This document shows positions 266 to 61,438 of a stretch of DNA of 62,257 bases, one piece after another. The notes beneath the pieces were generated by a model. That model was not told where the DNA came from and did no database searches. It was given only the letters and a program-made list of their open reading frames with translations. The stretch is from an uncultured Eubacteriales bacterium (GTDB lineage Bacteria; Bacillota; Clostridia; Christensenellales; Aristaeellaceae). The translations under genes were made by a program, and so were the position numbers. Every line of letters begins with the position of its first letter. The first letter of the stretch is position 1. The stretch lies in the NCBI GenBank assembly GCA_902761755.1, contig CACWLP010000010.1, positions 1 through 62,257 on the forward strand, given 5' to 3'.

Positions 266-1084
266 ATGGCCGGAGGCACGGCAGTCAAAGCGGCCGATCT
301 GATCCGGCTGTGGCGGCGGGCGCTCGACGGCCGCTGGGGCTACATCTGGGGCCGGTACGGACAGGTGTGGACGGAAGCAAACCAGCGCGCCGCCACCCGG
401 GTGCAGACCGTCCGTTGGGGGCGGCAATGGATCGAGCATCAGGTGGCGGACTGCTCCGGGCTGGCATACTGGGCGTTTCAACAGCTGGGCGGGCATGTGT
501 TCCACGGCAGCAACACCATCTGGAATCAGTACGTGACCTGCCGGTGCGATCTCAAAAACGGGCACAGGACGGACGGCAAGCCCATCCTCCCCGGCGATCC
601 GGTGTTCCTCAGGCGGAACGAGGGCGGCAAGCCGAACCGCCACCACATCGGGTACTATGTGGGCAATGATACCGTGATCGAAGCGAAGGGCACGCGGGAC
701 GGGGTGGTAACGTCTCCCCTGTCCCGCTGGCACGAAACCGCACATTGGCTCAACGTCGAATACGAGAATGGAGTGATTTACATGAACAAACCCGTTTTGC
801 GGAAAGGCTCCTCCGGCGATGCCGTCCGCGAATTGCAGCAGCTGCTGAATGCGAATGGATATGCGTTGGACGCCGACGGCAGGTTCGGCGCAAAAACCGA
901 AGCCGCCGTAAAGGATTTCCAGATCGTCCGGGGCCTGGCGGCGGACGGCGTGTGCGGCGCGGCCACTTGGGACGCCCTTTCGGCCTCCGAAGCGCAGGAC
1001 GGCGGCGATCTTTCCGCGCTGCGCGCCGCCCTGGCCGCCTGTCTTGCCGATCTGGACCGGATCATCGGAGCCCAGCATGGCTGA
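266..1084 (+). CDS. Phage endolysin: NlpC/P60-type peptidase with C-terminal peptidoglycan-binding domain
   Basis: A 272-residue cell-wall hydrolase. The N-terminal half carries a cysteine-peptidase signature: DCSGL with the candidate nucleophile at Cys63 and a His pair at about 126-127 (HHIGYYVG) as catalytic base, as in NlpC/P60-like enzymes that cut stem peptides. Residues about 175-235 are a PG_binding_1 domain (VLRKGSSGDAVRELQQLL followed by DGRFGAKTEAAV). There is no signal peptide, which fits release through the holin encoded downstream. It starts at the ATG fused to the preceding stop codon, so it is probably translationally coupled, and it overlaps the next gene by 8 bases. Peptidase family assignment (NlpC/P60 versus CHAP) is by motif only. 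Confidence 0.85.
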   Translation: MAGGTAVKAADLIRLWRRALDGRWGYIWGRYGQVWTEANQRAATRVQTVRWGRQWIEHQVADCSGLAYWAFQQLGGHVFHGSNTIWNQYVTCRCDLKNGHRTDGKPILPGDPVFLRRNEGGKPNRHHIGYYVGNDTVIEAKGTRDGVVTSPLSRWHETAHWLNVEYENGVIYMNKPVLRKGSSGDAVRELQQLLNANGYALDADGRFGAKTEAAVKDFQIVRGLAADGVCGAATWDALSASEAQDGGDLSALRAALAACLADLDRIIGAQHG

Positions 1085-1454
1085 TCTCACCTGGCAGGGG
1101 GCCGTCAGCGCCCTCTTGTTCCTCACCGCGGCAGCTGGGCTGGCGGCGGCGCTTTGGGCGGGGGTGGACGCCCTGCGCAAGCTCACCGGCGCGGACAGGC
1201 GGCGGGCCGCCCGGTCTCAAACCGAAAGCCGCCTGCGCGCCCTGGAAAACCGCATGGCAGCCTGCGAAGCGAGCCTGAGCCGGGATGAAATGCGCTTTTC
1301 CTTCATGCGCCAGGATCTCACCCAGGCCCTCACCGCCCTGAACGCGCTACTGATGCACGAGATCACCGGCAACAGCATCGACCGGCTGAAAACCGTCAAA
1401 TCCGGCCTGGACGCCTATCTGTCCGGCCGAAGAGAGAAAGGAGAAGCCCCGTGA
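1077..1454 (+). CDS. Small phage lysis-module membrane protein with coiled coil
   Basis: A 125-residue protein with an N-terminal transmembrane segment (about residues 9-30, ALLFLTAAAGLAAALWAG) followed by a basic, Glu/Arg-rich probable coiled coil (RLRALENRMAACEASLSR). The ATG at 1077 overlaps the endolysin stop by 8 bases and the holin start by 4, so the three genes form one coupled lysis cassette. Size and topology resemble phage haemolysin XhlA-like or spanin-like accessory proteins, but no family motif is decisive. Confidence 0.65.
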   Translation: MADLTWQGAVSALLFLTAAAGLAAALWAGVDALRKLTGADRRRAARSQTESRLRALENRMAACEASLSRDEMRFSFMRQDLTQALTALNALLMHEITGNSIDRLKTVKSGLDAYLSGRREKGEAP

Positions 1455-1636
1455 AGCAAAACCGTTTCCGTTCCTGGGCGCTGTGGACCTCCACCGCCGC
1501 CCTGATCGTATTCTGCCTGAAGGAATTCTTCGGCATCGACGCCGCCCAGCCCGTGAACGCCTTCCTGGACGTGCTGCTGCCGGTGGTCACCGCCTTCGGC
1601 ATCGTCAACGACCCCACCACCCGCGGCCGGCTGTAA
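1451..1636 (+). CDS. Phage holin, phi LC3-like family
   Basis: A 61-residue holin. It has a basic N-terminus, a first hydrophobic helix (ALWTSTAALIVFCL), a second one (FLDVLLPVVTAFGIV) and the C-terminal NDPTTRGRL tail, close to the DPTTKGLSDS tail of phi LC3-type holins. It would form the membrane pore that lets the endolysin reach the wall. GTG start at 1451 with AAAGGAG 7 bases upstream; the GTGA overlap couples it to the preceding gene. It is the last gene of the phage block and is followed by a strong terminator. Confidence 0.8.
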   Translation: MKQNRFRSWALWTSTAALIVFCLKEFFGIDAAQPVNAFLDVLLPVVTAFGIVNDPTTRGRL

Positions 1637-1677
1637 AAACCGCGGGGATGTGCGCCGAAACTGCCTTGCCGACGCCC

Positions 1678-1703
1678 CAAGGGCCCGTACGGGCCCTTTT
1701 TTG
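1678..1703 (+). terminator. Rho-independent terminator closing the phage lysis cassette
   Basis: A perfect 20-base palindrome (AAGGGCCCGTACGGGCCCTT, 1679-1698) runs into a T tract (about 1697-1702). It lies 40 bases after the holin stop and isolates the phage block from the mannan operon. Confidence 0.85.
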
Positions 1704-1727
1704 GTATGATTTTTTCTTTTTTACCCA

Positions 1728-1756
1728 TAGCAAATTGGATTCGTTTCGTTTATAAT
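1728..1756 (+). promoter_or_regulatory. Candidate sigma-A promoter of the mannoside phosphorylase operon
   Basis: A perfect -10 TATAAT (1751-1756) sits 17 bases after a weak -35 TAGCAA (1728-1733), in a locally AT-rich stretch between the phage terminator and the operon. The start codon follows about 50 bases later. The poor -35 suggests an activator or catabolite control, but no operator palindrome was recognised. Confidence 0.6.
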
Positions 1757-1806
1757 GAGTCTGACGGAAAAACCGGCGCACCCACGGCGCAAGGAGGATG
1801 CGGAAA

Positions 1807-2976
1807 ATGACCTACCAGGAGCTCTGCGACCGTTACGAAGCCCTGCTGGGGCAAAAGAACGCGGTGGACGGCACGCGCTACAACGGCATATTCGAGCGCT
1901 GGGCCCACCCGGTGCTCACCCGGGAGCACATCCCGCCGTTCTGGATCTACGATCCCGATCCGGAAAGCAATCCCTTCCTCATGCAGCGGCTGGGAGTCAA
2001 CGCGGTGTTCAACAGCGGGGCGCTGCTGCTGGACGGCAAATTCACCCTGGTGGCCCGGGTGGAGGGCGCGGACCGCAAGAGCTTCTTCGCCGTCGCCCAG
2101 TCGGACAGCGGCGTGGACGGCTTCCGCTTCTGGGACGAGCCGGTGATCCTGCCCGACACCTGCCCGGAGGAAACCAACGTCTACGACATGCGGCTCACCC
2201 GGCACGAGGACGGCTGGATCTACGGCGTTTTCTGCTCCGAAAGCAAGGATCTTTCCTCCCCGGACCTGGGCGCCGCCACCGCCGCGGCGGGCATCGTGCG
2301 CACCAAGGACCTGAAAACCTGGGAAAGGCTCCCCAACCTGCGCACCCTGCGCTCCCCCCAGCAGCGCAACGTCTGCCTGCACCCCGAATTCGTGGGCGGG
2401 CAGTACGCCTTCTACACCCGGCCCATGGACGATTTCATCGAGACCGGGTCCGGCGGGGGCATCGGCTTCGGGCTGTGCAAGGACATTTTGCACCCCGTCA
2501 TCGACGAGGAAAAAATGACCTCCGTACGCCGGTATCACACCGTCACGGAGGCGAAGAACGGCGCCGGGGCCGTGCCCATCAAAACGGACTGGGGCTGGAT
2601 CCACATCGCCCACGGGGTGCGGAATACCGCCGCGGGGCTGCGCTACGTGATCTACTGCTTCGCCACCGCCCTGGACGATCCCGCCCGGGTGATCGCCGAG
2701 CCCGGCGGGTATCTGATCGCTCCCCTGGGCGGCGAGCGCGTGGGAGACGTGAGCAACGTGGTGTTCACCAACGGCGCCATCGCCGCCCCGGACGGCAGGG
2801 TGTACATCTACTACGCCTCCAGCGACACCCGTCTCCACGTGGCCACCACGGATCTGGAGCGCCTCACGGATTACGTGTTCTCCACCCCCGCCGATCCCCT
2901 GCGCAGCGCGGACTGCGTGCGGCAGCGCACGGATTTCATCCGGAAGAACCTGGCATACCTGAAGGAACATTCCTGA
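1807..2976 (+). CDS. GH130 4-O-beta-D-mannosyl-D-glucose phosphorylase
   Basis: A 389-residue cytoplasmic glycoside phosphorylase that would split mannosyl-1,4-glucose with phosphate into mannose 1-phosphate and glucose. The GH130 five-bladed propeller signature is visible, including VYDMRLT (the Asp is the family's proton donor), [14 protein letters not shown] and [17 protein letters not shown]. Length matches GH130 subfamily 1 (about 390 residues). ATG 1807 is preferred over ATG 1798 because the AAGGAGG at 1791-1797 is 9 bases from the former and touches the latter. It is first of three same-strand genes with a phosphohexomutase and a second GH130, which supports the mannan assignment. Substrate specificity between GH130 subfamilies is inferred. 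Confidence 0.88.
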
Positions 2977-2988
2977 GGAGGAAGAGGC

Positions 2989-4665
2989 ATGAAAAGCATT
3001 CGGGAAAGCTATGAAAGGTGGCTGCGCCTGGCCGATCCCACGCTGCAAAAGGAGCTGCGCGGTATGGACGAAGCCGGGATGGAGGACGCCTTTTACCGGG
3101 AGCTGGCCTTCGGCACGGGGGGCCTGCGGGGCGTCATCGGCGCGGGCACCAACCGCATGAACGTGCACACCGTGCGCAGGGCGTCCCAGGGCCTGGCGGA
3201 CTATGTGAACGCGCATTTCCCGGCGGACGGGCGCCGCATCGCCGTGAGCTACGACAGCCGCATCCTCTCCGACGAATTTGCAAAGGCCGCCGCCGGGGTG
3301 TTCGCGGCCAACGGCATCCGGGCCCTGATCTACGACCGGCTCATGCCCACCCCCTGCCTGTCCTATGCCGTGCGGGCGCTGCACTGCGCCGCGGGCATCA
3401 TGGTCACCGCCTCCCACAATCCCGCCAAATACAACGGCTACAAGGTTTACGGCCCCGACGGCTGCCAGATCACCACCCGGGCCGCGGAAGAGATCCTCTC
3501 CGAAATCGAAAAGCTGGATGTGTTTGAGGACGTGAAATGCCTGGGCTTTGAGGACGGGCTCCGCTCCGGCACGATCGCCTTCATCCCGGAGGAAGTGTAC
3601 GACGGCTTCATTTCGGAGGTCAGGGCCCAGTCCCTGCTGGGGGACGAGCAGATCGACCGGGACGTGGCCATCGTGTACAGCCCCCTGAACGGCACGGGGC
3701 TTGGGCCTGTGACCCGTACGCTGCGGGAAAGCGGGTATACCAACGTCACCGTGGTAAAGGAGCAGGAGCAGCCCGACGGCCGCTTCCCCACCTGCCCCTA
3801 CCCCAACCCCGAGATTCGGGAAGCCATGCAGCTGGGCCTGGAATACGCCCAAAGGCTGAACGCCGATCTGCTCCTGGCCACCGATCCGGACTGCGACCGC
3901 TGCGGCATCGCGGTCCGGGACAGCGCGGGCGGATACCGGCTGCTCACCGGCAACGAAACGGGCATGCTGCTGCTGGATTACGTGTGCAGCCGCCGCATCG
4001 CCCTGGGAAAAATGCCCGAAAAGCCCGTGCTGGTGAAAACCATCGTCACCACGGATATGGGCGAAAGGATCGCCGAAAAGTACGGCGTGGAAACGGTGAA
4101 CGTGCTCACGGGCTTCAAGTACATCGGCGAAACCATCGCCCGCCTGGAGAAGGCCGGGCGGCGGAACAGCTACATTTTCGGCTTCGAAGAAAGCTACGGC
4201 TACCTGTCCGGCACCTACGTGCGGGACAAGGACGCCGTGAACGCCGCGTTCCTGATCTGCGAAATGTTCGCCTATTACCGCAGCAAAGGGATGGGGCTTC
4301 TGGACCGGCTGGAGGAAATGTACCGGGAGTACGGCTACTGCCTGAACACGCTGCACAGCTATGAATTCGAAGGCGCGGCGGGGTTTGAGAAAATGGGGCG
4401 GATCATGGCCGCCTTCCGCGGCGGCATCGGGAAGATCGCCGGGCGGCAGGTGGAAAAAACCGCCGATTACGGCCCCGGCCTGGACGGCCTGCCCCCCGCC
4501 GACGTGCTGAAATTCACCCTGTCCGGCGGCGCGTCCGCCGTGGTGCGGCCCAGCGGCACCGAGCCCAAAATAAAAATCTACCTCTCCGTTTCCGCCCCGG
4601 ACCGGGAATCCGCTGCGCTGGAGGAAAAGGCCCTGGCCGCCGGGATGGAAGCATACCTGCGCTGA
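2989..4665 (+). CDS. Phosphoglucomutase/phosphomannomutase (alpha-D-phosphohexomutase)
   Basis: A 558-residue phosphohexomutase that would convert mannose 1-phosphate released by the flanking phosphorylases to mannose 6-phosphate. Family elements appear in order: N-terminal AFGTGGLRG, the phosphoserine loop TASHNPAKYNGYKVYG, the metal loop DPDCDRCGIAV, the sugar loop GFEESYGYLSG and the C-terminal phosphate loop RPSGTEPKIKIYLS. Length fits the bacterial PgcA/PMM2-like branch. GGAGG lies 7 bases before the ATG and the gene follows the first GH130 by 12 bases, so cotranscription is likely. It probably also acts on glucose phosphates. Confidence 0.92.
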   Translation: MKSIRESYERWLRLADPTLQKELRGMDEAGMEDAFYRELAFGTGGLRGVIGAGTNRMNVHTVRRASQGLADYVNAHFPADGRRIAVSYDSRILSDEFAKAAAGVFAANGIRALIYDRLMPTPCLSYAVRALHCAAGIMVTASHNPAKYNGYKVYGPDGCQITTRAAEEILSEIEKLDVFEDVKCLGFEDGLRSGTIAFIPEEVYDGFISEVRAQSLLGDEQIDRDVAIVYSPLNGTGLGPVTRTLRESGYTNVTVVKEQEQPDGRFPTCPYPNPEIREAMQLGLEYAQRLNADLLLATDPDCDRCGIAVRDSAGGYRLLTGNETGMLLLDYVCSRRIALGKMPEKPVLVKTIVTTDMGERIAEKYGVETVNVLTGFKYIGETIARLEKAGRRNSYIFGFEESYGYLSGTYVRDKDAVNAAFLICEMFAYYRSKGMGLLDRLEEMYREYGYCLNTLHSYEFEGAAGFEKMGRIMAAFRGGIGKIAGRQVEKTADYGPGLDGLPPADVLKFTLSGGASAVVRPSGTEPKIKIYLSVSAPDRESAALEEKALAAGMEAYLR

Positions 4666-52471: not shown

Positions 52472-54136
52472 TCATCCCCGGGGCGCGGCGGCCAGCGTAT
52501 CCGTGATCTGCGCGGGAGAAGCGGGCGCGGCGGCGGCCGGGCAGGCGGGCAGCAGCATTTCCTTCAGCACGTCCTGCACCGTATCCGCCAGGATCACCCG
52601 GATCCCCGCCTCCCGGAAGCGCTCCATGCCGTTTTCCCGGGGCACGATCACCCGTTTGAGCCCCGCGCGCCGGGCCGCTTCGATCTTTTCCGGCACGCCG
52701 CCCACGGGCCGGATGCTTCCCATGAGGCCGATCTCCCCCGTCACGGCGGTTTTCCCGTCCGCGGGCCGTCCCGTCAGGGCGCTCACCGCCGCGGCGGCCA
52801 TGGCCGCCCCCGCCGACGGCCCGTCCACCGGCATGCCGCCGGGAAAATGGATGCGCACGTCCGTCCGCCCGTCCAGGTATCCCAGGCGGCGCAGCGCCGC
52901 TTCCACCATTTCCGCCGACACCCGGGCGGAGGACGCCCTCCGCAGCGTGCGGCCCCCGCCGGTCATTTCCTCTTCCTCCACGATGCCGGTGACGTACACG
53001 TGCCCACCGCCTTCTTCCGCCGCGGCCTCGATCTCCATCACCGCCCCCTGGTGGCTGCCGTACACCGCCAGGCCGTGCACCGCGCCCACCCGGTCCGCGT
53101 CCGCGGCCTCGCCCGACGCTCGCCGGGCGTAATGCCCCGCGGCGATCACCCATTCCATATCCGTCCGGCCAATGGCTTTCCGGCCCGCCATTTCCGCCGC
53201 GCCTGCCGCCATCTGCACCATGTTCACCGCGTCCCGGCCGCAGGCGGCGTACTGCCCGGTGAGGGCGGCAGTCTCCTCCGTCATGGGGCATTCCGCCCGC
53301 TGGGCCGCTTCAAAGGCGATGCGGCTGATCTCCTCCGGCTCCAGGGCGCGGAAGAACACCTCCATGCACCGGGAGCGCAGGGCCGGCGGGATCTCCTCCG
53401 GGCTGCGGGTGGTGGCCCCCACCAGGCGGAAATCCGCCGGCAGGCCGTGCCTGAATACCTCGTGCACGTACCGCGGGGTATTCCCGTCCCCCGGGTGATA
53501 GTACGCCGATTCAAAGCGCACCTTCCGGTCCTCCAGCACCTTGAGCAGCTTGTTCATCTGGATGGGGTGCATTTCCCCGATCTCATCCAGGAACAGCACG
53601 CCCCCGTGGGCCTTCGTCACCGCCCCGGGCATGGGCTGGGGCACTCCCTGCACCCCCAGCGGCCCCGCGCCCTGGTAAATGGGATCGTGGACGGAGCCGA
53701 TCAGCGGGTCCGCGATGGCCCGCTCGTCAAAGCGCACGCAGGTGGCGTCCATTTCGATGAAAGGCGCGTCCGGGCGGAAGGGCGTGCCGGGGCTTTTCTT
53801 CGCCGCCTCCAGGGCCAGCCGGGCCGCGCAGGTCTTGCCGATGCCCGGCGGGCCGTAGATCAGCACATGCTGGGGATTCCTTCCCCCCAGGATGGCCAGC
53901 AGCGCCCGCACCCCCTCCTCCTGGCCCACGATGTCCCGGAGCGTCCGGGGCCGCACGTGCTCCGACAGCGGCTCGGTCAGGTGAACGGCGCGCATCTTCC
54001 GCAGCTTTTCCATTTCCTCCGCGTTTTCCCGTCGGACGCCCGGCGGCGCGGCGCGGCCGGATCGCAGCTGCCTGAAAAAATACGCGCCCATGATCAGCGT
54101 CACCGCCAGCTGCACCAGCGTCAATACCCAGATCAA
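52472..54136 (-). CDS. lonB: LonB-type AAA+ protease
   Basis: A 554-residue membrane-anchored Lon paralogue. Residues about 1-22 form a transmembrane helix (IWVLTLVQLAVTLIMGAYFF). The AAA domain has IYGPPGIGKTCAA, Walker B LFLDEIGEMHPIQMNKLL, sensor GATTRSPEEIP. The protease domain has Ser in VDGPSAGAAMAAAAVSA and Lys in EKIEAARRAGLKR. Length and anchor match Bacillus LonB (about 550 residues), which is made under sigma-F in the forespore. TTG 54136 is preferred: AAGGGGG is 7-8 bases upstream and it aligns with the family start. It starts inside the T tract of a hairpin. Confidence 0.88.
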   Translation of the reverse strand: MIWVLTLVQLAVTLIMGAYFFRQLRSGRAAPPGVRRENAEEMEKLRKMRAVHLTEPLSEHVRPRTLRDIVGQEEGVRALLAILGGRNPQHVLIYGPPGIGKTCAARLALEAAKKSPGTPFRPDAPFIEMDATCVRFDERAIADPLIGSVHDPIYQGAGPLGVQGVPQPMPGAVTKAHGGVLFLDEIGEMHPIQMNKLLKVLEDRKVRFESAYYHPGDGNTPRYVHEVFRHGLPADFRLVGATTRSPEEIPPALRSRCMEVFFRALEPEEISRIAFEAAQRAECPMTEETAALTGQYAACGRDAVNMVQMAAGAAEMAGRKAIGRTDMEWVIAAGHYARRASGEAADADRVGAVHGLAVYGSHQGAVMEIEAAAEEGGGHVYVTGIVEEEEMTGGGRTLRRASSARVSAEMVEAALRRLGYLDGRTDVRIHFPGGMPVDGPSAGAAMAAAAVSALTGRPADGKTAVTGEIGLMGSIRPVGGVPEKIEAARRAGLKRVIVPRENGMERFREAGIRVILADTVQDVLKEMLLPACPAAAAPASPAQITDTLAAAPRG

Positions 54137-54144
54137 AAAAACAC

Positions 54145-54186
54145 CCCCTTCACACGCACACGAAACGTCTTTAGCATGTGAAGGGG
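54145..54186 (-). promoter_or_regulatory. Hairpin overlapping the lonB ribosome-binding site
   Basis: Minus strand CCCCTTCACATGC pairs with GCGTGTGAAGGGG (13 bp, one G-T), then GTGTTTTTTTG. The 3' arm contains the lonB Shine-Dalgarno and the T tract contains its TTG start, so the structure can act both as terminator for upstream transcription and as a block on lonB initiation. Confidence 0.65.
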
Positions 54187-54232
54187 AAAGTGGAACCATG
54201 CGTTTCTTCGACGGAAAAAATGATAGGCGGCT

Positions 54233-54799
54233 TCAGGCCCCGGACCGCAGCCATTCCTCCCGGGTCAGGATATTGGTTTCGTCCTGTTCCACTGTGTGGA
54301 ACCGCGTTTCAAACGTGCCGTAGGCGTAATGCCTGAACCCACACTTTTCCTGCACCCGCGCGGACTGGGTGTTGGACAGGAAATGAGCGCACAGGATCAC
54401 GTCCAGCCCCACCTCCTCAAACAGATACCGGATCGCCGCGTTCACGGCCTCCGGCATCAGGCCCCGGCCCCAGTACGCCTTTGCCAGCACGTAGCCAATC
54501 TCCCGGCACCGTTTGTCCTTCAATTCCGGGAATTTTTCCTCGCTGTATTTTTCGATGCCCAGGGACCCGATCACCCTGCCGCAGTATTCCAGGGCGAAGG
54601 TCTTCCTGTTTTCGATGAACCGGTCCAGAATCGCCTGGGTTTCTTCCCGGCTGGCATGGGGCTTCCACCCCGCCATCTGGCCCACGCCGTCCACCGAGGC
54701 ATAGGCATAGAAGTCCTCCAGATCGGCCTGCCGCCAGGGCCTGAGGATCAGCCGCCCGGTGCGCAGCACAACGCGGCTGATATCAATATCCGCATTCAT
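54233..54799 (-). CDS. RimJ/RimL-type GNAT acetyltransferase
   Basis: A 188-residue GNAT enzyme. The start VVLRTGRLILRPWRQADLEDFYAY, the ERKFPELKDKRCREIGYVLAKAYWGRGLMPEA-like core (acetyl-CoA loop YWGRGLMPEA) and the SNTQSARVQEKCGFRHYA helix are typical of RimJ/RimL proteins acting on protein N-termini or small amines. It starts 15 bases after the BMP-family gene stop, with AAGGAA upstream, so it is the last gene of the sensor operon. Confidence 0.85.
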   Translation of the reverse strand: MNADIDISRVVLRTGRLILRPWRQADLEDFYAYASVDGVGQMAGWKPHASREETQAILDRFIENRKTFALEYCGRVIGSLGIEKYSEEKFPELKDKRCREIGYVLAKAYWGRGLMPEAVNAAIRYLFEEVGLDVILCAHFLSNTQSARVQEKCGFRHYAYGTFETRFHTVEQDETNILTREEWLRSGA

Positions 54800-54814
54800 C
54801 GCGTTCTTCCTTTT

Positions 54815-56005
54815 TTACTCGATCTCCAGGATCACGTCTTTGAGCACATAATGGAAGCCGGGCAGGGAAAAATCCTTGTTCTCGGCATAGCCCTGATTCA
54901 GGTCGTAGGTATCCCCTTCGTCGTCGGGGTTCACCCCCAGGTAATCCCCCCGGAACACCTCCAGCCTGCCTTTTTTGAACTGCTCGATGGCCTTGTCCAT
55001 CTTTTCCTGGGTGCCCTCCGCCGCGATCAGCTGATTCAGATCCAGCATTTCCACCCAGTCCTTTTCAAACCCGGCGCATACGTCCCGGCCGTGCACGTCG
55101 CCGTCCACCCGCTCCTCGATGCGCTTCCCGTCCAGCACCGCGCCCACCGCCTGCACCACGTAAGGGGTCCAGTTGATCCGGGTGCTGATCAGGGAGGTGG
55201 CGGGGGCCACGTCCAGCATGCTCTGGCTGTAGCCCACGTGATACACCGGGCGGCTGCCCGCCGCATCCTCGCAGGCCACCGCCGGGCCGATGGTGTGGGT
55301 GTTCTGAGCGATCACCACGCAGCCCTGCTCGATCAGGGATTTGGCGCAGGCCTTTTCCCGGCTGTAATTGCTGCCCGTGCCGGTGTATTTTACGATCATC
55401 CTGGCTTCCGGCGCCACGGACCGGACCCCCAGCAGGAACGCCGTATAGCCGGACCGCTCCTCCGCCGAGGGCGTCGCCCCCACGAAGCCCACCAGCGCCT
55501 GGTCCGCCCCGATGGCGCCGTCGTCGATCAGCTGGCGCAGCTTCATGCCCGCCGCGATGCCGCTGACGTAGCGCCCCTGGTAGATCTTCCCGTTGAAGGT
55601 GTGGTAGTTTTCCGGCAAATCGGTATCCGGCAGGTCCTGATAGGATTCCTGGCAGAACTGGGTGCCGGGGTATTCCGCGGCCACCTGGGCCGCCAGCTTG
55701 GTATCCACGTTGGTGAAGATCACCCGGCAGCCCATCTGGGCCATTTCCCGCAGGGGCTTTTCCGCCTCGGCGCTGATCACGTTGCTCTTCACCAGCACCT
55801 CCACCCGCTCCGGATACTCGTGCTCCAGGGCGCGCTGGGCCAGGGAGAAATTGTAGGTATAGGGGGTGCTTTCATCGTTTTCGTAGATGAAGCCCACCTT
55901 CATCACGCCCTCCACGGGCTTGCCCGCCCGGATGGAATGGAAGGTGAAAAACGCAAGCAGCACCGCCAGGGCCGTCGCCGCCGCCGTAAGGATATACCGC
56001 TTCAT
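54815..56005 (-). CDS. BMP/PnrA-family solute-binding protein
   Basis: A 396-residue extracytoplasmic binding protein with a short N-terminal hydrophobic anchor (about 5-25) and no lipobox Cys. The BMP fold is indicated by KVGFIYENDESTPYTYNFSLA, VRVIFTNVDTKLAAQV-like core, YQGRYVSGIAAGMKLRQ, VGFVGATPSAEERSGYTAFLLGV and ISTRINWTPYVVQAV. PnrA-type proteins bind purine nucleosides. The ATG overlaps the HD-GYP stop (ATGA), so expression is coupled. No ABC permease or ATPase follows, so it may present ligand to the sensor rather than to a transporter. Confidence 0.88.
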   Translation of the reverse strand: MKRYILTAAATALAVLLAFFTFHSIRAGKPVEGVMKVGFIYENDESTPYTYNFSLAQRALEHEYPERVEVLVKSNVISAEAEKPLREMAQMGCRVIFTNVDTKLAAQVAAEYPGTQFCQESYQDLPDTDLPENYHTFNGKIYQGRYVSGIAAGMKLRQLIDDGAIGADQALVGFVGATPSAEERSGYTAFLLGVRSVAPEARMIVKYTGTGSNYSREKACAKSLIEQGCVVIAQNTHTIGPAVACEDAAGSRPVYHVGYSQSMLDVAPATSLISTRINWTPYVVQAVGAVLDGKRIEERVDGDVHGRDVCAGFEKDWVEMLDLNQLIAAEGTQEKMDKAIEQFKKGRLEVFRGDYLGVNPDDEGDTYDLNQGYAENKDFSLPGFHYVLKDVILEIE

Positions 56006-59000
56006 GCTTTGCCCTCCTGCGCGCCGTCCGCATTGCCGTCGGCCTTCCGGGCCGCCGCATCCTGCGGCGCTGCCTCGTCCTTTGGCGCTTCTTCATTCTG
56101 CACGCCGTAGATTTCGTGAATGTTGATCTTCCCGTCCTCGATGAGCTTAAGCAGCGCGTCCACAAACCGGGGATCGAACTGGGTGCCCCGGCCCTTTTTC
56201 ATCTCGTTGAGCACGTAATCAAAGTCCATTTGCTTGCGGTACACGCGGTTGGCCGTCATGGCGTCGAAGGCGTCGGCCACGCCGATGATGCGCCCGAACA
56301 GGGGGATCTCCTCACCCTGGAGCCCGTCGGGATAGCCCCGGCCGTCATACCGCTCGTGATGGTAGCGGGCGCCCTCCACCACGTGGTCGATCAGGGTGAA
56401 ATCCTTGAGAATCTCGGCGCCCTTGGTGGTGTGGGTCTTCATCTTGGCGTATTCCTCGTCCGTCAGCCGGGCGGGCTTGTTGAGGATGCTGTCCGGCACG
56501 CCGATCTTGCCGATGTCGTGCATGCGGGCCGCCTTGCGCAGGCTTTCGCATTCCTCCTCGCTCATGCCCACCTCCCGGGCGATCATCACCGAATATTCGC
56601 TGACCCGCCTGGAGTGCTCCGCCGTGCGCACGTCCTTGGCGTCGACGGCCTTCGCGATGGCGAAGATGGTCTCGTTGCCCATCTGCACCTGCTGCCGCAC
56701 CAGCGCCAGTTCCTTCTCCTGCTTTTCCAGGGCGCGCTGCATCTGCCGCCGCACCAGGAACCAGGTGAACCATGCGATGAAAATGATGGGCACGATCAGG
56801 AGATAGAAAATGAACCACGGATTGTCGTAGATTTCTTCTTCCTTGATCAGCTCGTAGGTGCGCTCCCCCAGGATATCCTGCTGGTTATGGTCGAATACCG
56901 CCAGGTGGAACAGGTATTTTCCCGGGGGCACATTGGTGTACACGATGGCGCTGACGCTGTTCTGGGGCAGCACGATCCAGCCGTCCTCGAAGCCCTCCAG
57001 ATAGAAGCCCACGTAGGGGTCCTGGATGGTGTAGTTGATGATCTCGGGATACAGTTCGATCTTGGAGGTGCTGCGCGCCGCCACGATGGGGGCGGATTTT
57101 TCGATGGGATAGGCTTTGCCGTCCATCCGCACGGTGCTCACCGTCAGCCGGCAGGATTTGGTGGTGGAGATATACTGGTTGGCATTGATGACGAACACGC
57201 CCGTATCGCAGGGCAGGAACAGGTTTTCCTTCCCGTCGAAACAGTTCCAGGAATTGGCCGTCAGGGCGCTGTTGAGGCCCTGGCGGGAATCCAGCAGCTT
57301 GTAGGAGATACTGTCCGCGCCGGAGAGCAGCTCCTCCCGGTCCACCACGTAGATGCCGGCGCTGCTCATCACGAACAGGGTGTGCTCATCCTTGATCCAG
57401 ATATCGTAGTTGTTGTAATACGGGAAATTGCTCAGCTGGCGGATCGTTCCTTCCTTGTCCATGTAGCACAGGCTGTTGCTGGTGACGATGAAGACGCCCT
57501 CGGAATACGGATCCCACACCGTGCGCAGGATCACCCCGCTGGTAAGCCCGTCCTCCCGGCCGATCATCCGGGCCAGGTTGCCCCGGCGGATCAGGGCGAT
57601 GCCGTCCCCGTCCGTGCCCGCCAGGATGGATTTGTCCGGCAGCTCCGTCACGGTAAGGATCACGGTGTTGGTCAATCCTTCCTTCCGCCCGACGGTGCGC
57701 ACCACCTTATGCCCGCGGATGAAGTTGAGGCCCGTATCCCCCGCGGCCAGCACCGTGCCGTCGGAAAGCTCCTTCACCACCCGGGCACTGTCGCCCAGGC
57801 TGCCGGATTTGCTGTCGTAGGTGTGCTGCGTGCCGTCCTTTTCCACCTCGATCAATCCCCAGTCGTCGGTGCAGATCCACAGGCTGCCGCTGCTGTCCGC
57901 CATCAGGCAGCGGATGCGCACCGCGGAATGTTCCGGGGTTTCGGCAAACTGCTCCGTCAAGGCGTTGGTGACGCGCGTTTTGCACGTTTCGTCCACCGCG
58001 TCCAGGCCCTTGTCCGTGCCGAAATAGTAGGCGCCCTGCCAGGCCTCCACCGCATTGACCATTTTGCTGGTCATGCCCAGGGTGGCGTACACGTCCCGGA
58101 AAGTGGACGGCGCCATCCTCAGCAGGCCCTTCCGGGAGGAGGTGAACCAGAAATTCCCCTGGTAGTCCACCTGCATATTGTCGATGGAGTTGTCAAAATC
58201 GTTGGTATTGACGCTGCGGAACGTGCCGGACGCATCCACGAAGCCCACGCCGTTGTCGGCGGTGATGAACAGATCGCCGTTTTCCAGGTACTGCATGTCG
58301 TTGAGGTTGCTCAGGCCCTCGCACAACATGCAGCCGACTTCCTCAAAATACTCGTTGGAAACGTCGTAGATATAGATCGCGTTTTCCTTGGTGCCCAGCA
58401 GCAGCCTGCCCTGGGGATCGAAGCAGCAGGTGCGGAAATTGCCGTGATCGCCGGTGTTCCGCAGGGAGGAGAGGATCTTGCCCTTCCGGATCAGGAACGC
58501 CCGCCCGTTCTTGGTCACCGCGGCCACCAGACCGCTGGGATCCGCGGCAAGATGGCTGGCGTAATTGATTTCCCGCAGGGTATTCACTTTCTTGAGGCCG
58601 CCGTTCAGCGTCAGGATCTGCAGGCTGTCGGTGGTGCCGATGTAATAATACCCGTTGGTATCCTGGATGATGCTGCGCACGGTATTGGAGGGCAAGCCCC
58701 GGCTTTCGTCCACCACGTTGGCGATTTTTTCATTGATGGCGATGGACAGCCCGCTGTCGTTGGTGCCGATCCACAGCCGGCCTTCCTCGTCCACGTACAG
58801 GCATCTCACATTGCGCACCGATTCATAGTCCATCCAGCGGAACTCCCGGCCGTTATAACGGTACAGTCCTGCGTAAGTGCCCACCCACAGGATCCCGTCG
58901 TTGGTCTGGGCGATGTCGTTGGCCTCGCCGCAGGGCAGGCCGCTTTTGCCGGCGTACACCGTCTGCACGTAATTGCTGTAATCGGCGCCGGGCACGGAGG

Positions 59001-59646
59001 CTTCCTCCGCACGGACGTTGATCCCCCCACAGCACAGCAGCACCGCCAGCGCCGCCGCCGCGGCCTTTTCCGCCGCGTGCGCCCCGGCAGGCTTTTCTTT
59101 TTTCCTTTTGATGCGGCGGACCAGGCGCAGCACCAGGAACAAGAGCATCAGCGTCAGGAATTTATCCAGGAAATCGATATAAAACTGCCCGGCCACATAG
59201 CACAGCAGATCGGGGCAGCCCTGCTCCCTGAGAAAGCCGATCACGCCGTCGCCCCATTTGTTCCCCGTGCTGCCGTGATAAAACAGGATATTCAGCGGCG
59301 TGGACACCAGGATGGCCGCCGCCGCCGACATGGCGCTCACCGTCATGGCGCTGAACAGCCTGTCCAGGGATTTTCTTTTGGCCGCCAGGCCTACGATGAT
59401 GCCCAGGGTGACGCTGGTAACGCTGTAAATAATGGACAGGCGGTTTTCCAGCGCATAGATCAGGTTTCCCGTCAGGCCCACAATGCTGCCGCACACCGGC
59501 CCCGCTATGTACGCGCTGAGCACCGTGCCGAACGCATCCAGCCACAGCGGCAGCGACAGGCGCACCGCCAGCAGCTTGCCGCCGTAATTGAGAAGGATAC
59601 AGAATAATATGAACAGGCTGAAATGCGTCAGCTTCCATTTCTTCAT
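56002..59646 (-). CDS. Membrane sensor with ECF-S-like domain, beta-propeller and HD-GYP phosphodiesterase
   Basis: A 1,214-residue multidomain protein. Residues about 1-185 form five to six helices resembling an ECF transporter S-component (LPLWLDAFGTVLSAYIAG, GLTGNLIYALENR). After another hydrophobic helix (about 190-212), residues about 225-880 are two-component-regulator propeller repeats (GILWVGTYAGLYRYNG, GRLWIGTNDSGLS, GSLWICTDDWGLIEV) closed by a Y_Y_Y-like domain (VYTNVPPGKYLFHLAVFD). A transmembrane helix (about 950) and coiled coil lead to HD-GYP: ARMHDIGKIGVPD and HHERYDGRGYPDGLQG. The C-terminus is Ala/Glu-rich. It would hydrolyse c-di-GMP in response to an external ligand. Flanked by two solute-binding proteins. 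Confidence 0.88.
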   Translation of the reverse strand: MKKWKLTHFSLFILFCILLNYGGKLLAVRLSLPLWLDAFGTVLSAYIAGPVCGSIVGLTGNLIYALENRLSIIYSVTSVTLGIIVGLAAKRKSLDRLFSAMTVSAMSAAAAILVSTPLNILFYHGSTGNKWGDGVIGFLREQGCPDLLCYVAGQFYIDFLDKFLTLMLLFLVLRLVRRIKRKKEKPAGAHAAEKAAAAALAVLLCCGGINVRAEEASVPGADYSNYVQTVYAGKSGLPCGEANDIAQTNDGILWVGTYAGLYRYNGREFRWMDYESVRNVRCLYVDEEGRLWIGTNDSGLSIAINEKIANVVDESRGLPSNTVRSIIQDTNGYYYIGTTDSLQILTLNGGLKKVNTLREINYASHLAADPSGLVAAVTKNGRAFLIRKGKILSSLRNTGDHGNFRTCCFDPQGRLLLGTKENAIYIYDVSNEYFEEVGCMLCEGLSNLNDMQYLENGDLFITADNGVGFVDASGTFRSVNTNDFDNSIDNMQVDYQGNFWFTSSRKGLLRMAPSTFRDVYATLGMTSKMVNAVEAWQGAYYFGTDKGLDAVDETCKTRVTNALTEQFAETPEHSAVRIRCLMADSSGSLWICTDDWGLIEVEKDGTQHTYDSKSGSLGDSARVVKELSDGTVLAAGDTGLNFIRGHKVVRTVGRKEGLTNTVILTVTELPDKSILAGTDGDGIALIRRGNLARMIGREDGLTSGVILRTVWDPYSEGVFIVTSNSLCYMDKEGTIRQLSNFPYYNNYDIWIKDEHTLFVMSSAGIYVVDREELLSGADSISYKLLDSRQGLNSALTANSWNCFDGKENLFLPCDTGVFVINANQYISTTKSCRLTVSTVRMDGKAYPIEKSAPIVAARSTSKIELYPEIINYTIQDPYVGFYLEGFEDGWIVLPQNSVSAIVYTNVPPGKYLFHLAVFDHNQQDILGERTYELIKEEEIYDNPWFIFYLLIVPIIFIAWFTWFLVRRQMQRALEKQEKELALVRQQVQMGNETIFAIAKAVDAKDVRTAEHSRRVSEYSVMIAREVGMSEEECESLRKAARMHDIGKIGVPDSILNKPARLTDEEYAKMKTHTTKGAEILKDFTLIDHVVEGARYHHERYDGRGYPDGLQGEEIPLFGRIIGVADAFDAMTANRVYRKQMDFDYVLNEMKKGRGTQFDPRFVDALLKLIEDGKINIHEIYGVQNEEAPKDEAAPQDAAARKADGNADGAQEGKA

Positions 59647-59675
59647 TCTTTTCCCCCCTTCCCCGCTCTATGCGC

Positions 59676-60614
59676 TCAGAGCCCCAGCCGGCCGGCATAT
59701 TCCTCGCCGGCCTCATACCATTGCATATACAGATCGTCCTGCAGCACTTCGTCAATAACCCCGTTCACGAAATACATCAGCTGCAGTTCTCCCTTTTTGC
59801 CCGCGATCCGGTCGCCCTTGTGGTTCTCGTCCATCACAAAATGGATGCCCCGGGCCAGGGTCAATCCGCAGTCCGGGTTGTTCCGGATATACTGCACCGC
59901 GGTTTCCAGTTCTACCGTGCCTGCGTCGGCCCAGCCCTCCTGCACCGCCAGATACACGTCCTGCACGCTTTCCACCCGGCGGAATTGGCGGTAATCGGTC
60001 ACGTTCTCCGCCGTCATGGATTCCTGCAGCGAGCCCTGCTGGGCCACGATGTCCCGGTCCTTCAGATCCGCGGTGCGGAAGATCCTGTCCCTGTCTTCCG
60101 TGCGGATCACCATGCCGCTGCCCGCCAGCGTTTCCTCATAAAAATATCCCTTGGACATTTCCACCCGGTCCGCCCGGCTGGGAATAAAGGACAGAGCGGA
60201 AATGGCCAGATCGCACCGGCCCTCCTCCACGGCGGTGAGCACCTCCGTAAAGCTCATGGGCACGATTTCCAGCGTTACCCCCATGCGCAGGGCGATCAGC
60301 CGCGCCAGCTCCATATCCGCGCCAACATACTGCTCCTGGCCGGAAAGGGAAGGATCAATGAATTCCTGGGGCGGGAAATACGGTTCCGTCGCCACCCGCA
60401 GGACCCCCCTGGTTTTGATATCCAGCAGCGCGCCCTCCGCGTTCTCCGGGATGCCGCCCGTCACGTCCATGAACCCATCCACATAATTCCACTGGTTTTC
60501 CACATATACGGCTTCCGTGCCCTCTGCTCCCGCCGCCCCGCCGGCGCTCAGCAGCACCAGCATCAGCCCCGCGCACAGGACCCGCAGCCAACGCTTTCTT
60601 CTCATTTCCGCCAT
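59676..60614 (-). CDS. Family 3 solute-binding protein
   Basis: A 312-residue periplasmic-binding-like protein with a signal peptide (cleavage near GAAGA-EG; no lipobox). The SBP_bac_3 fold appears in GVLRVATEPYFPPQEFID, YVGADMELARLIALRMG, EEGRCDLAISALSFIPSRADRVEMSKGYF (split in the text for length) and VQEGWADAGTVELETAVQY. This family binds amino acids or opines. It is first in the operon, 29 bases before the HD-GYP gene, with no transporter genes nearby. The distal segment ends with YFVNGVIDEVLQD. Confidence 0.88.
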   Translation of the reverse strand: MAEMRRKRWLRVLCAGLMLVLLSAGGAAGAEGTEAVYVENQWNYVDGFMDVTGGIPENAEGALLDIKTRGVLRVATEPYFPPQEFIDPSLSGQEQYVGADMELARLIALRMGVTLEIVPMSFTEVLTAVEEGRCDLAISALSFIPSRADRVEMSKGYFYEETLAGSGMVIRTEDRDRIFRTADLKDRDIVAQQGSLQESMTAENVTDYRQFRRVESVQDVYLAVQEGWADAGTVELETAVQYIRNNPDCGLTLARGIHFVMDENHKGDRIAGKKGELQLMYFVNGVIDEVLQDDLYMQWYEAGEEYAGRLGL

Positions 60615-60668: not shown

Positions 60669-60697
60669 ATTATACCATCGTGCCGCCGGAAATGCCA
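60669..60697 (-). promoter_or_regulatory. Candidate promoter of the sensor operon
   Basis: Minus strand TGGCAT (60692-60697), 17-base spacer, TATAAT (60669-60674), 55 bases before the family 3 binding-protein gene. Confidence 0.58.
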
Positions 60698-60772
60698 TAG
60701 GCACGTTTGTTTTCTTCCTGATTCTGTAAAATTTCGCACGTTTTTCCCCTGTTCCATTTCTGTTTTTTCAAA

Positions 60773-61255
60773 TCCGTCCGGTTTCTTTTCCTGCCGGTCT
60801 TCCCTTTCCGCTTTTTTCTGCGCGGCGAATCGCGTTTTTTTGAAAAAACGCTTGACAGGCCCTCCGGCTTTTTCCATATCTTCCCTTTCTTCCTCACTCC
60901 GTCCGGTTTCTTTTCCCACTGGCCTTCCCTTTCCGCTTTTTTCTGCGCGGCGAATCGCGTTTTTTTGAAAAAACGCTTGACAGGCCCTCCGGCTTTTGCT
61001 ATATCTTCCCTTTCTTCCTCACTCCGTCCGGTTTCTTTTCCTGCCGGCCTTCCCTTTCCGCTTTTTTCTGCGCGGCGAAGCGCGTTTTTTTGAAAAAACG
61101 CTTGACAGGCCCTCCGGCTTTTGCTATATTTTCCCTTTCTTCCTCACTCCGTCCGGTTTCTTTTCCCGTCGGTCTTCCCTTTCCGTTTTTTTCTGCGCAG
61201 CGAATCGCGTTTTTTTGAAAAAACGCTTGACAGGCCCTCCGGCTTTTGCTATACT
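60773..61255 (+). repeat. Four tandem 125-bp units, each carrying a promoter-like TTGACA
   Basis: Units begin with TCCGTCCGGTTTCTTTTCC at 60773, 60898, 61023 and 61148, an exact 125-base period. Each has the palindrome GCGTTTTTT-TG-AAAAAACGC directly before TTGACA (60852, 60977, 61102, 61227). Seventeen bases later the -10 is CATATC, TATATC, TATATT and TATACT in turn. Only the last unit is followed by tRNA genes. Confidence 0.92.
61227..61255 (+). promoter_or_regulatory. Promoter of the tRNA-Gln/tRNA-Glu operon
   Basis: TTGACA (61227-61232), 17-base spacer, TATACT (61250-61255), about 30 bases before the first tRNA. It is the best -10 match of the four tandem units. Confidence 0.85.
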
Positions 61256-61285: not shown

Positions 61286-61359
61286 TGGGGAATGGTGTAA
61301 CGGCAGCACCTACGACTCTGACTCGTATTGTCAAGGTTCAAATCCTTGTTCCCCAGCCA
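61286..61359 (+). tRNA. tRNA-Gln (anticodon CUG)
   Basis: Acceptor TGGGGAA pairs with TTCCCCA, discriminator G, CCA encoded (61357-61359). The anticodon arm TACGA-CTCTGAC-TCGTA gives anticodon CTG, reading CAG. T arm CAAGG-TTCAAAT-CCTTG is intact. Confidence 0.95.
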
Positions 61360-61362
61360 TTT

Positions 61363-61438
61363 GCCTCCATTGTCTAGAGGCCTAGGACGCCGCCCTCTCA
61401 AGGCGGAAACATGGGTTCGAATCCCATTGGAGGTGCCA
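61363..61438 (+). tRNA. tRNA-Glu (anticodon CUC)
   Basis: Acceptor GCCTCCA pairs with TGGAGGT (one G-T at the end), discriminator G, CCA encoded (61436-61438). Anticodon arm CCGCC-CTCTCAA-GGCGG gives anticodon CTC, reading GAG. It lies 3 bases after tRNA-Gln, so the two are cotranscribed. Confidence 0.95.

Follow-up and report, generated by a model that had tools for sequence, protein, structure and literature searches.

Why would the genes of two solute-binding proteins flank that of a giant membrane sensor, with no transporter gene beside them? This question is raised by an operon in a 62,257-nucleotide stretch of DNA (contig CACWLP010000010.1, hereafter the window) from an uncultured Eubacteriales bacterium of the Aristaeellaceae. 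The operon encodes, in this order, a family 3 solute-binding protein (SBP), a sensor with an ECF S-component-like membrane domain, a beta-propeller region and an HD-GYP domain, a binding protein of the BMP/PnrA family, and a GNAT acetyltransferase (Table 1). All four open reading frames (ORFs) are present on the minus strand, separated by 29 bases, a 4-base overlap and 15 bases, as described in an original prediction made from the letters of the window, and Pfam backs the names given there to the four products. That prediction also proposed that two classes of extracellular ligand, amino-acid-like and nucleoside-like, are relayed to the sensor to control hydrolysis of cyclic dimeric GMP (c-di-GMP).

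Our answer, held with a little more belief than doubt, is that this is a transporter-less receptor operon, in which the binding proteins report extracellular ligands to the HD-GYP sensor without importing them. First, the anchored BMP protein would be the obligate partner of the sensor, presenting a purine or nucleoside. Second, the secreted family 3 protein would add another, amino-acid input in the lineage of the window. Third, the docking site of the ligand-loaded binding proteins would be the propeller, the S-like domain or both. Fourth, docking would alter HD-GYP activity, and with it the cytoplasmic level of c-di-GMP or of a related cyclic dinucleotide. On the specifics of this mechanism, namely, ligand identity, docking, direction of control and substrate, all read from sequence, belief and doubt are about balanced. 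Its foundations, taken up in turn below, are gene content, co-conservation, the lack of recurrent ATP-binding cassette (ABC) genes, the kinship of the N-terminal domain, and the family-wide conservation of pocket and catalytic residues.

The sensor and its binding proteins are conserved together

We searched 200 genomes of the family to which the window belongs for the sensor, the SBP and the BMP protein, scoring at most three, 11 and nine candidates per genome, respectively. The sensor is represented in 32 genomes by 34 full-length copies; one further, partial copy lies at a contig edge (G188). The family 3 subfamily also has 34 copies (E ≤ 1.8e-116; next match 1.4e-73), each directly 5' of one of the 34 sensors, and the BMP subfamily has at least 33 (E ≤ 2.9e-161), the next level being near 1e-98 among the matches listed. 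Two sensors lack a full BMP gene, one where the contig ends (G125) and the other where the end of the contig truncates the gene (G103), and G188 contributes one BMP gene. Both subfamilies are sharply separate from other BMP and SBP proteins, and in the 200 genomes they were seen only beside the sensor.

The same association extends beyond these genomes. Four more full-length sensors (L112–L115) have both partners, and a wider genome scan gave 80 loci, 66 of them (L032–L097) with the whole or part of the sensor and the other 14 with its HD-GYP part only. The BMP gene lies directly 3' of the sensor in 64 of the 66 loci, most commonly with a 4-base overlap (41 of 64), and the contigs of the remaining two, L041 and L050, end within 64 bp. 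The pair is found on contigs of Butyrivibrio sp. NC2007 and of Lachnospiraceae NK4A144, MC2017 and KH1P17. Sixteen distant sensor paralogues (L116–L131) have no S-like domain, and neither partner is present in the flanks examined. The sensor and the BMP protein, joined by the family 3 gene in the lineage of the window, are strictly co-conserved. Long frames in L018 and L042 that suggested fusion of the sensor and BMP genes proved to be separate ORFs with one stop between them, and correlations between the distances of module proteins (0.38–0.76), which are confounded by shared descent, were not used as evidence.

Upstream of the sensor, the family 3 gene is present in 25 of the 66 loci; it is missing from 33 whose upstream DNA covers 1.2 kb or more, and eight loci could not be decided. 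Elsewhere in 18 searched genomes of the 33 lacking loci, mostly Lachnospiraceae or Butyrivibrio, the subfamily was not found at E ≤ 1e-30 with the model that recovers the 34 copies described above. On a quick tree, rooted on the paralogues and with long outgroup branches, its presence changes three times, most simply by absence in the early branches followed by one gain and two losses, namely, in a group of 24 rows, mostly Lachnospiraceae, and in L042, whose upstream DNA was read. The simplest account is, then, of a core of sensor and BMP protein, to which a dispensable family 3 protein was added once. The operon put forward originally as one unit holds up for these three genes, with the family 3 protein optional, whereas its fourth member, the GNAT gene, is incidental, as shown below.

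By eye, the family 3 protein has a Sec-type signal peptide and no lipobox. The signal peptide is followed by a conserved extension of about 30 residues, which is a candidate docking element. In the pocket, Arg147 and Ser195 are present in 54 of 54 rows, and position 235 is Asp in 41 rows and Glu in the window; these residues correspond to the amino-acid contacts of the SBP_bac_3 family.

A purine-type pocket and a membrane domain with nucleoside-linked kin

The BMP protein of the module has a conserved N-terminal membrane anchor that looks uncleaved, and the best solved matches of its profile are 3s99 and AtzT (6pi5). AtzT was crystallised with guanine, and adenine was modelled in 3s99 (PMC6834077). 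The pocket residues of AtzT were mapped through printed alignments, in which the stretch of Ser97 and Phe98 has no confident alignment. Across the module family, the equivalents Tyr, Glu and Trp are kept in 76 of 79, 73 of 78 and 74 of 76 sequences, respectively, with His at the place of Asn218 (72 of 76), Asp or Asn at that of Asn220 (71 of 76), and Gly at that of Asn169 (74 of 78). Because of this purine-type pocket, together with the kinship of the S-like domain with nucleoside-linked ECF operons, the ligand of the family is most likely a purine or a nucleoside.

The N-terminal membrane domain of the sensor, labelled ECF-like in the original prediction, stays below the Pfam cut-offs in a full-length scan. 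Its match to NCBIfam NF045596 (putative ECF S component, CD3073 family) reaches 1.6e-19 and, with 75.4 bits, is below the curated cut-off of 180. All 25 aligned S-like domains match NF045596, and the stand-alone related S components that were scanned are under the curated cut-off too. A competing label is 5TM-5TMR_LYT of Pfam, for which the window domain alone scores 26.0 bits (cut-off 24.6; full protein 21.1) and which 13 of the 25 domains match at E ≤ 0.01; ECF_trnsprt is below its cut-off when the domain is scanned alone.

A class-level search of 291 genomes, 42 of them with a match, recovered stand-alone S components and other fusions. The S-like domains of the sensors form one clade, which groups (99/89, midpoint root) with the S components of L179 and L180; these sit with a PNP_UDP_1 gene and EcfT/EcfA. 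The motifs STPLN and TGN.WGD are common to the sensor domain and its nearest S components. A second search, of 299 genomes, led to the 14 loci studied, namely, L179 and 13 stand-alone matches with at least 55% identity (L180 and L235–L246). EcfT and EcfA are present in all 14, and an adjacent PNP_UDP_1 gene in ten. These operons are candidate nucleoside ECF transporters, and they support, without proving, a nucleoside-type ligand. Of the four loci without one, L241 and L242 have an isochorismatase-like neighbour (Pfam on L241 only), L238 is by eye close to genes for riboflavin, and in L243 neighbours of both these kinds are absent. The nucleoside part of the proposed relay is strengthened by this kinship and by the family-wide pocket of the BMP protein.

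More distant relatives broaden the picture. The S-like domains of propeller-less HD-GYP proteins and of one histidine kinase form a separate clade, so that recruitment of S domains into sensors probably happened more than once. Some CD3073-like S components adjoin IU_nuc_hydro enzymes and, in L192 and L198, a radical-SAM gene as well, a combination found in queuosine salvage, with the roles of QueK and QueL (PMC11130926). Since the IU_nuc_hydro-linked S components form a clade other than that of the nearest kin of the sensor, queuosine is less likely to be the ligand than are ordinary nucleosides. Separately, the CD3073-like S components of L184–L186, L188, L189 and L191 are paired with a small HCILN-motif protein.

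Five proteins of about 1600 residues in Lachnospiraceae-family genomes (L229–L233) share the S-like domain and the propeller. Their long frames were considered as possible fusions, and the three scanned with Pfam (L229, L231 and L233) proved to end in a hybrid kinase; L230 and L232, without a Pfam scan of their own, have the same S-propeller layout and length. An SBP_bac_1 gene lies immediately 5' of the S-propeller gene in L230 and L233, with a receiver-type gene 3' (by Pfam in L230, by eye in L233). The contig of L231 stops just past the S-propeller gene, and the next gene in L232 is receiver-like (by eye).

A predicted cyclic dinucleotide phosphodiesterase as output

The propeller region of the sensor gives significant profile matches to the propeller structures 4a2l, 3v9f and 3ott, of hybrid two-component systems (HTCS), and its output is HD_5, with no HisKA found in the Pfam scan. 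The HD-GYP residues H1043, D1044, K1047, H1072, H1096, H1097, G1104, Y1105 and D1125 are invariant (43 rows). The best solved profile match of this domain is 5z7c (5.7e-57), a phosphodiesterase specific for 3'3'-cyclic GMP-AMP (3'3'-cGAMP), ahead of 4mcw (2.7e-53), and the c-di-GMP phosphodiesterase 4r8z matches too. Nine GGDEF matches in the genome of the window make c-di-GMP signalling plausible. The sensor is, therefore, a predicted HD-GYP cyclic dinucleotide phosphodiesterase, for which we infer c-di-GMP as substrate. A search for c-di-GMP-I riboswitches gave no match, but its controls gave none either. In the same genome, L146 (G000:C26, about 630–3111) has an ORF bearing SBP_bac_3 just 5' of an overlapping ORF bearing GGDEF, a possible second gene pair linking a binding protein to c-di-GMP.

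ABC genes are not regular companions of the module

As stated originally, the operon has no ABC permease or ATPase, and with seven ABC query proteins no relative of either was found in the whole window. These queries recovered the ATPase in 13 of 14 control loci. A pattern-based test was too weak: it recovered the ATPase in nine of 14 controls, or 12 when loosened, and in neither form detected the BMP-type ATPases present in L132 and L133. Accordingly, an ABC ATPase was seen in the flanks of 12 of the 66 loci by pattern and of 22 with the query proteins, the flanks being of at least 2 kb on both sides in 42 of the 66. These ATPase relatives are mostly of varied type and place. One lies within 200 bp of the module in L075 and L090 (both exporter-type by eye) and in L062 (by eye of siderophore type); further exceptions are a sugar-type importer directly upstream in L096 and a sugar-type permease upstream in L047 (by eye). 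The neighbourhoods, which the original prediction had named as the place where it could fail, turned out in its favour: ABC genes are not the usual companions, and the binding-protein genes are co-conserved with the sensor.

The lack of a lipobox in both binding proteins, originally set against normal uptake components of Gram-positive bacteria, was observed again, but it provides no contrast. A loose lipobox pattern fits three of 53 SBP and two of 92 BMP N-termini of the module. The same genome has seven other SBP_bac_3 or Bmp matches, five of which (L132, L133, L144, L145 and L147) have a clear N-terminal signal and no lipobox by eye, and four of these five adjoin ABC genes, as read from their ORFs; the other two matches, L135 and L146, were excluded from the comparison.

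Receptor, transporter, or both

Several observations weigh against a receptor operon. First, at the pocket places where the family has Trp, His and Asp or Asn, the BMP protein of the window has Gly, Asn and His, the Gly being shared by that of L040. With these three departures from the family pattern, the protein may have changed its ligand or may have a weaker site. Second, a phosphorylase gene is missing beside four of the 14 related S components, and no module-type BMP gene lies beside the S-propeller kinases of L229, L230 and L233, where the flank was sufficient, so that the S-like domain needs no BMP protein by itself. Third, of the 58 loci in which the place of the family 3 gene can be assessed, 33 lack it, and no docking patch emerged when sensor conservation was compared with and without the family 3 protein. 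Fourth, two genes downstream of the module in L076 and L077, the same strand encodes a complete BMP transporter, composed of a lipoprotein, an ATPase and two permeases (Pfam shows Bmp in L076; the permeases were recognised by eye), and this transporter could link the module with uptake.

The gene order in these two loci (11552–19339 in L076 and 11552–19395 in L077) is module BMP gene, cation-efflux-like gene, small gene and BMP ABC transporter, all on one strand; this transporter is a possible source of the module BMP protein. As a rule, then, the module does not include ABC genes, but at the base of the family, where L076 and L077 branch deeply, there is a link with nucleoside-type uptake. 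Because of these transporters, our confidence in a receptor operon was slightly reduced, and that in an uptake function slightly raised.

Such an uptake function, which we still consider improbable, would mean that the binding proteins serve ABC transporters encoded elsewhere, or that the module is a nucleoside-uptake system, with the sensor merely regulating it or being cotranscribed. The genome does have separate BMP and family 3 ABC systems, whose membrane parts might be shared, and the full transporters of the deep-branching loci point the same way. However, those transporters have a BMP lipoprotein of their own, and the binding proteins of the module belong to sharply distinct subfamilies seen, in the 200 genomes, only beside the sensor, whose paralogues lack both partners. 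The conserved N-terminal anchor of the BMP protein also argues for a receptor rather than an uptake component.

Somewhat less probable still is that the S-like domain continues to transport, docking on a shared EcfT/EcfA and thereby coupling nucleoside uptake to HD-GYP activity. Its grouping with genuine ECF S components, with motifs in common, is what would be expected of such a domain. Yet, the operon of the window has no ECF gene, a genome-wide EcfT search not having been made, and ECF transporters are not known to be obligately paired with BMP proteins. A receptor with another output, in which the HD-GYP domain acts on, for example, 3'3'-cGAMP or through protein contacts, is the least probable of the three, as 5z7c leads the solved matches but 4mcw is close to it, 4r8z matches too, and the genome has its GGDEF matches. 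We therefore keep to a transporter-less receptor operon; the earlier interpretation is partly supported, its core idea being strengthened with the corrections made above.

Transcription unit and surroundings

A promoter-like site lies 5' of the operon and a strong terminator 3' of it (Table 1), and for this reason a single transcript of SBP, sensor, BMP and GNAT genes is most likely. The terminator hairpin overlaps the annotated start of the downstream lon-like ORF (54199–52472), whose true start is probably further in than listed. By position, the GNAT gene is cotranscribed with the module. It was rejected as a module member, as it is not conserved across L003–L097, where tblastn gave no match above 45 bits; a single GNAT match, of 48.9 bits, was found in the paralogue locus L125. 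Upstream of the operon, a 125-bp unit is repeated in 3.8 copies (60773–61253), directly 5' of two tRNA genes (61286–61435); three copies have a terminator-like hairpin, and two a plus-strand promoter-like site, TTGACA-17-TATAnT.

Table 1. Features of the receptor operon and its borders in the window.
Feature	Position	Strand	Details
Family 3 solute-binding protein	59676..60614	-	312 aa; SBP_bac_3 1.4e-20 (Pfam)
Conserved N-terminal extension of family 3 protein	60417..60509	-	about residues 36-66, Y.EN.WN.V..SMD.S.GIP; 46 non-redundant rows
Sensor	56002..59646	-	1214 aa; HD_5 1.8e-41, Reg_prop 9.6e-24, Y_Y_Y 1.6e-6 (Pfam)
ECF S-component-like N-terminal membrane domain of sensor	59107..59646	-	residues 1-180
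Extracytoplasmic beta-propeller repeats and Y_Y_Y of sensor	56842..58971	-	about residues 226-935
Hydrophobic segment of sensor, predicted last transmembrane helix	56752..56820	-	residues 943-965; inferred from sequence
HD-GYP domain of sensor	56167..56652	-	residues 999-1160; signature residues intact
BMP/PnrA-family binding protein	54815..56005	-	396 aa; Bmp 7.2e-20 (Pfam)
GNAT acetyltransferase	54233..54799	-	188 aa; Acetyltransf_3 4.7e-28 (Pfam)
Promoter-like site 5' of operon	60669..60698	-	ATGGCA - 18 - TATAAT, TG ahead of second hexamer; consensus 10/12, not proof
Intrinsic terminator 3' of GNAT gene	54125..54195	-	13-pair stem and U run; -26.3 kcal/mol, z -3.6

Relation to known systems

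The closest precedent is NspS-MbaA of Vibrio cholerae and Sinorhizobium meliloti, in which a solute-binding protein is also reported to control a membrane c-di-GMP enzyme. Its binding protein is one for polyamines, with a sensor and an output other than those of the module. The module has the same linkage, that is, an SBP gene strictly tied to a membrane enzyme of predicted c-di-GMP metabolism and without a transporter of its own, except in L076, L077 and L096. It differs in its HD-GYP output, its propellers, its ECF S-like domain and its two other families of binding proteins. HTCS with Reg_prop and Y_Y_Y (4a2l, 3v9f and 3ott) have the same extracytoplasmic propeller plus Y_Y_Y architecture, but a histidine kinase and receiver form their output, and their direct ligands are glycans, whereas the module sensor ends in HD-GYP, with no histidine kinase or receiver output, and has BMP and SBP partners.

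Parts of the module also have relatives. The S components of CD3073 type beside nucleoside enzymes have a homologous membrane domain with shared motifs, which in the module is fused to a sensor, with no adjoining EcfT/EcfA in the window. PnrA, AtzT (6pi5) and 3s99 belong to the family of the module BMP proteins, which keep most purine-pocket residues across the module family, but are membrane-anchored, always beside the sensor and usually without ABC genes, the pocket of the window deviating. In RmcA of Pseudomonas aeruginosa, SBP_bac_3 is likewise an amino-acid input to a c-di-GMP enzyme, and a 2022 review of c-di-GMP sensing gives it as the only PBP-clan domain studied until then, in RmcA (PMC8846402). 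There it is fused, whereas the family 3 protein of the module is separate and secreted. Activation of c-di-GMP enzymes by SBPs is an accepted principle (PMC9602780). Binding-protein-gated c-di-GMP enzymes are, then, already known from NspS-MbaA; it is the composition that is new among the literature searched, where, with subscription papers mostly beyond reach, no description of this gene set was found, in line with the novelty claimed originally.

It is tempting, if doubtful, to speculate that capture of an ECF S component gave rise to the membrane domain of a multi-part extracellular receptor. Purines or nucleosides would be read by both the S-like domain and the anchored BMP protein, the family 3 protein, acquired later, would add amino acids, and together they would report released cell contents (lysis, predation or feed) and set the level of c-di-GMP through one HD-GYP enzyme. 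The same front end on hybrid kinases, two of them beside SBP_bac_1, would make this a general receptor class of Clostridia, and suggests that S-propeller receptors with binding proteins are a recurring theme. If the proposed reading is true, an ECF S component can become a receptor, and concrete ligand and partner predictions follow, which are checkable in relatives such as Butyrivibrio sp. NC2007. Gut and rumen Clostridia would then perceive nucleosides and amino acids outside the cell without taking them up.

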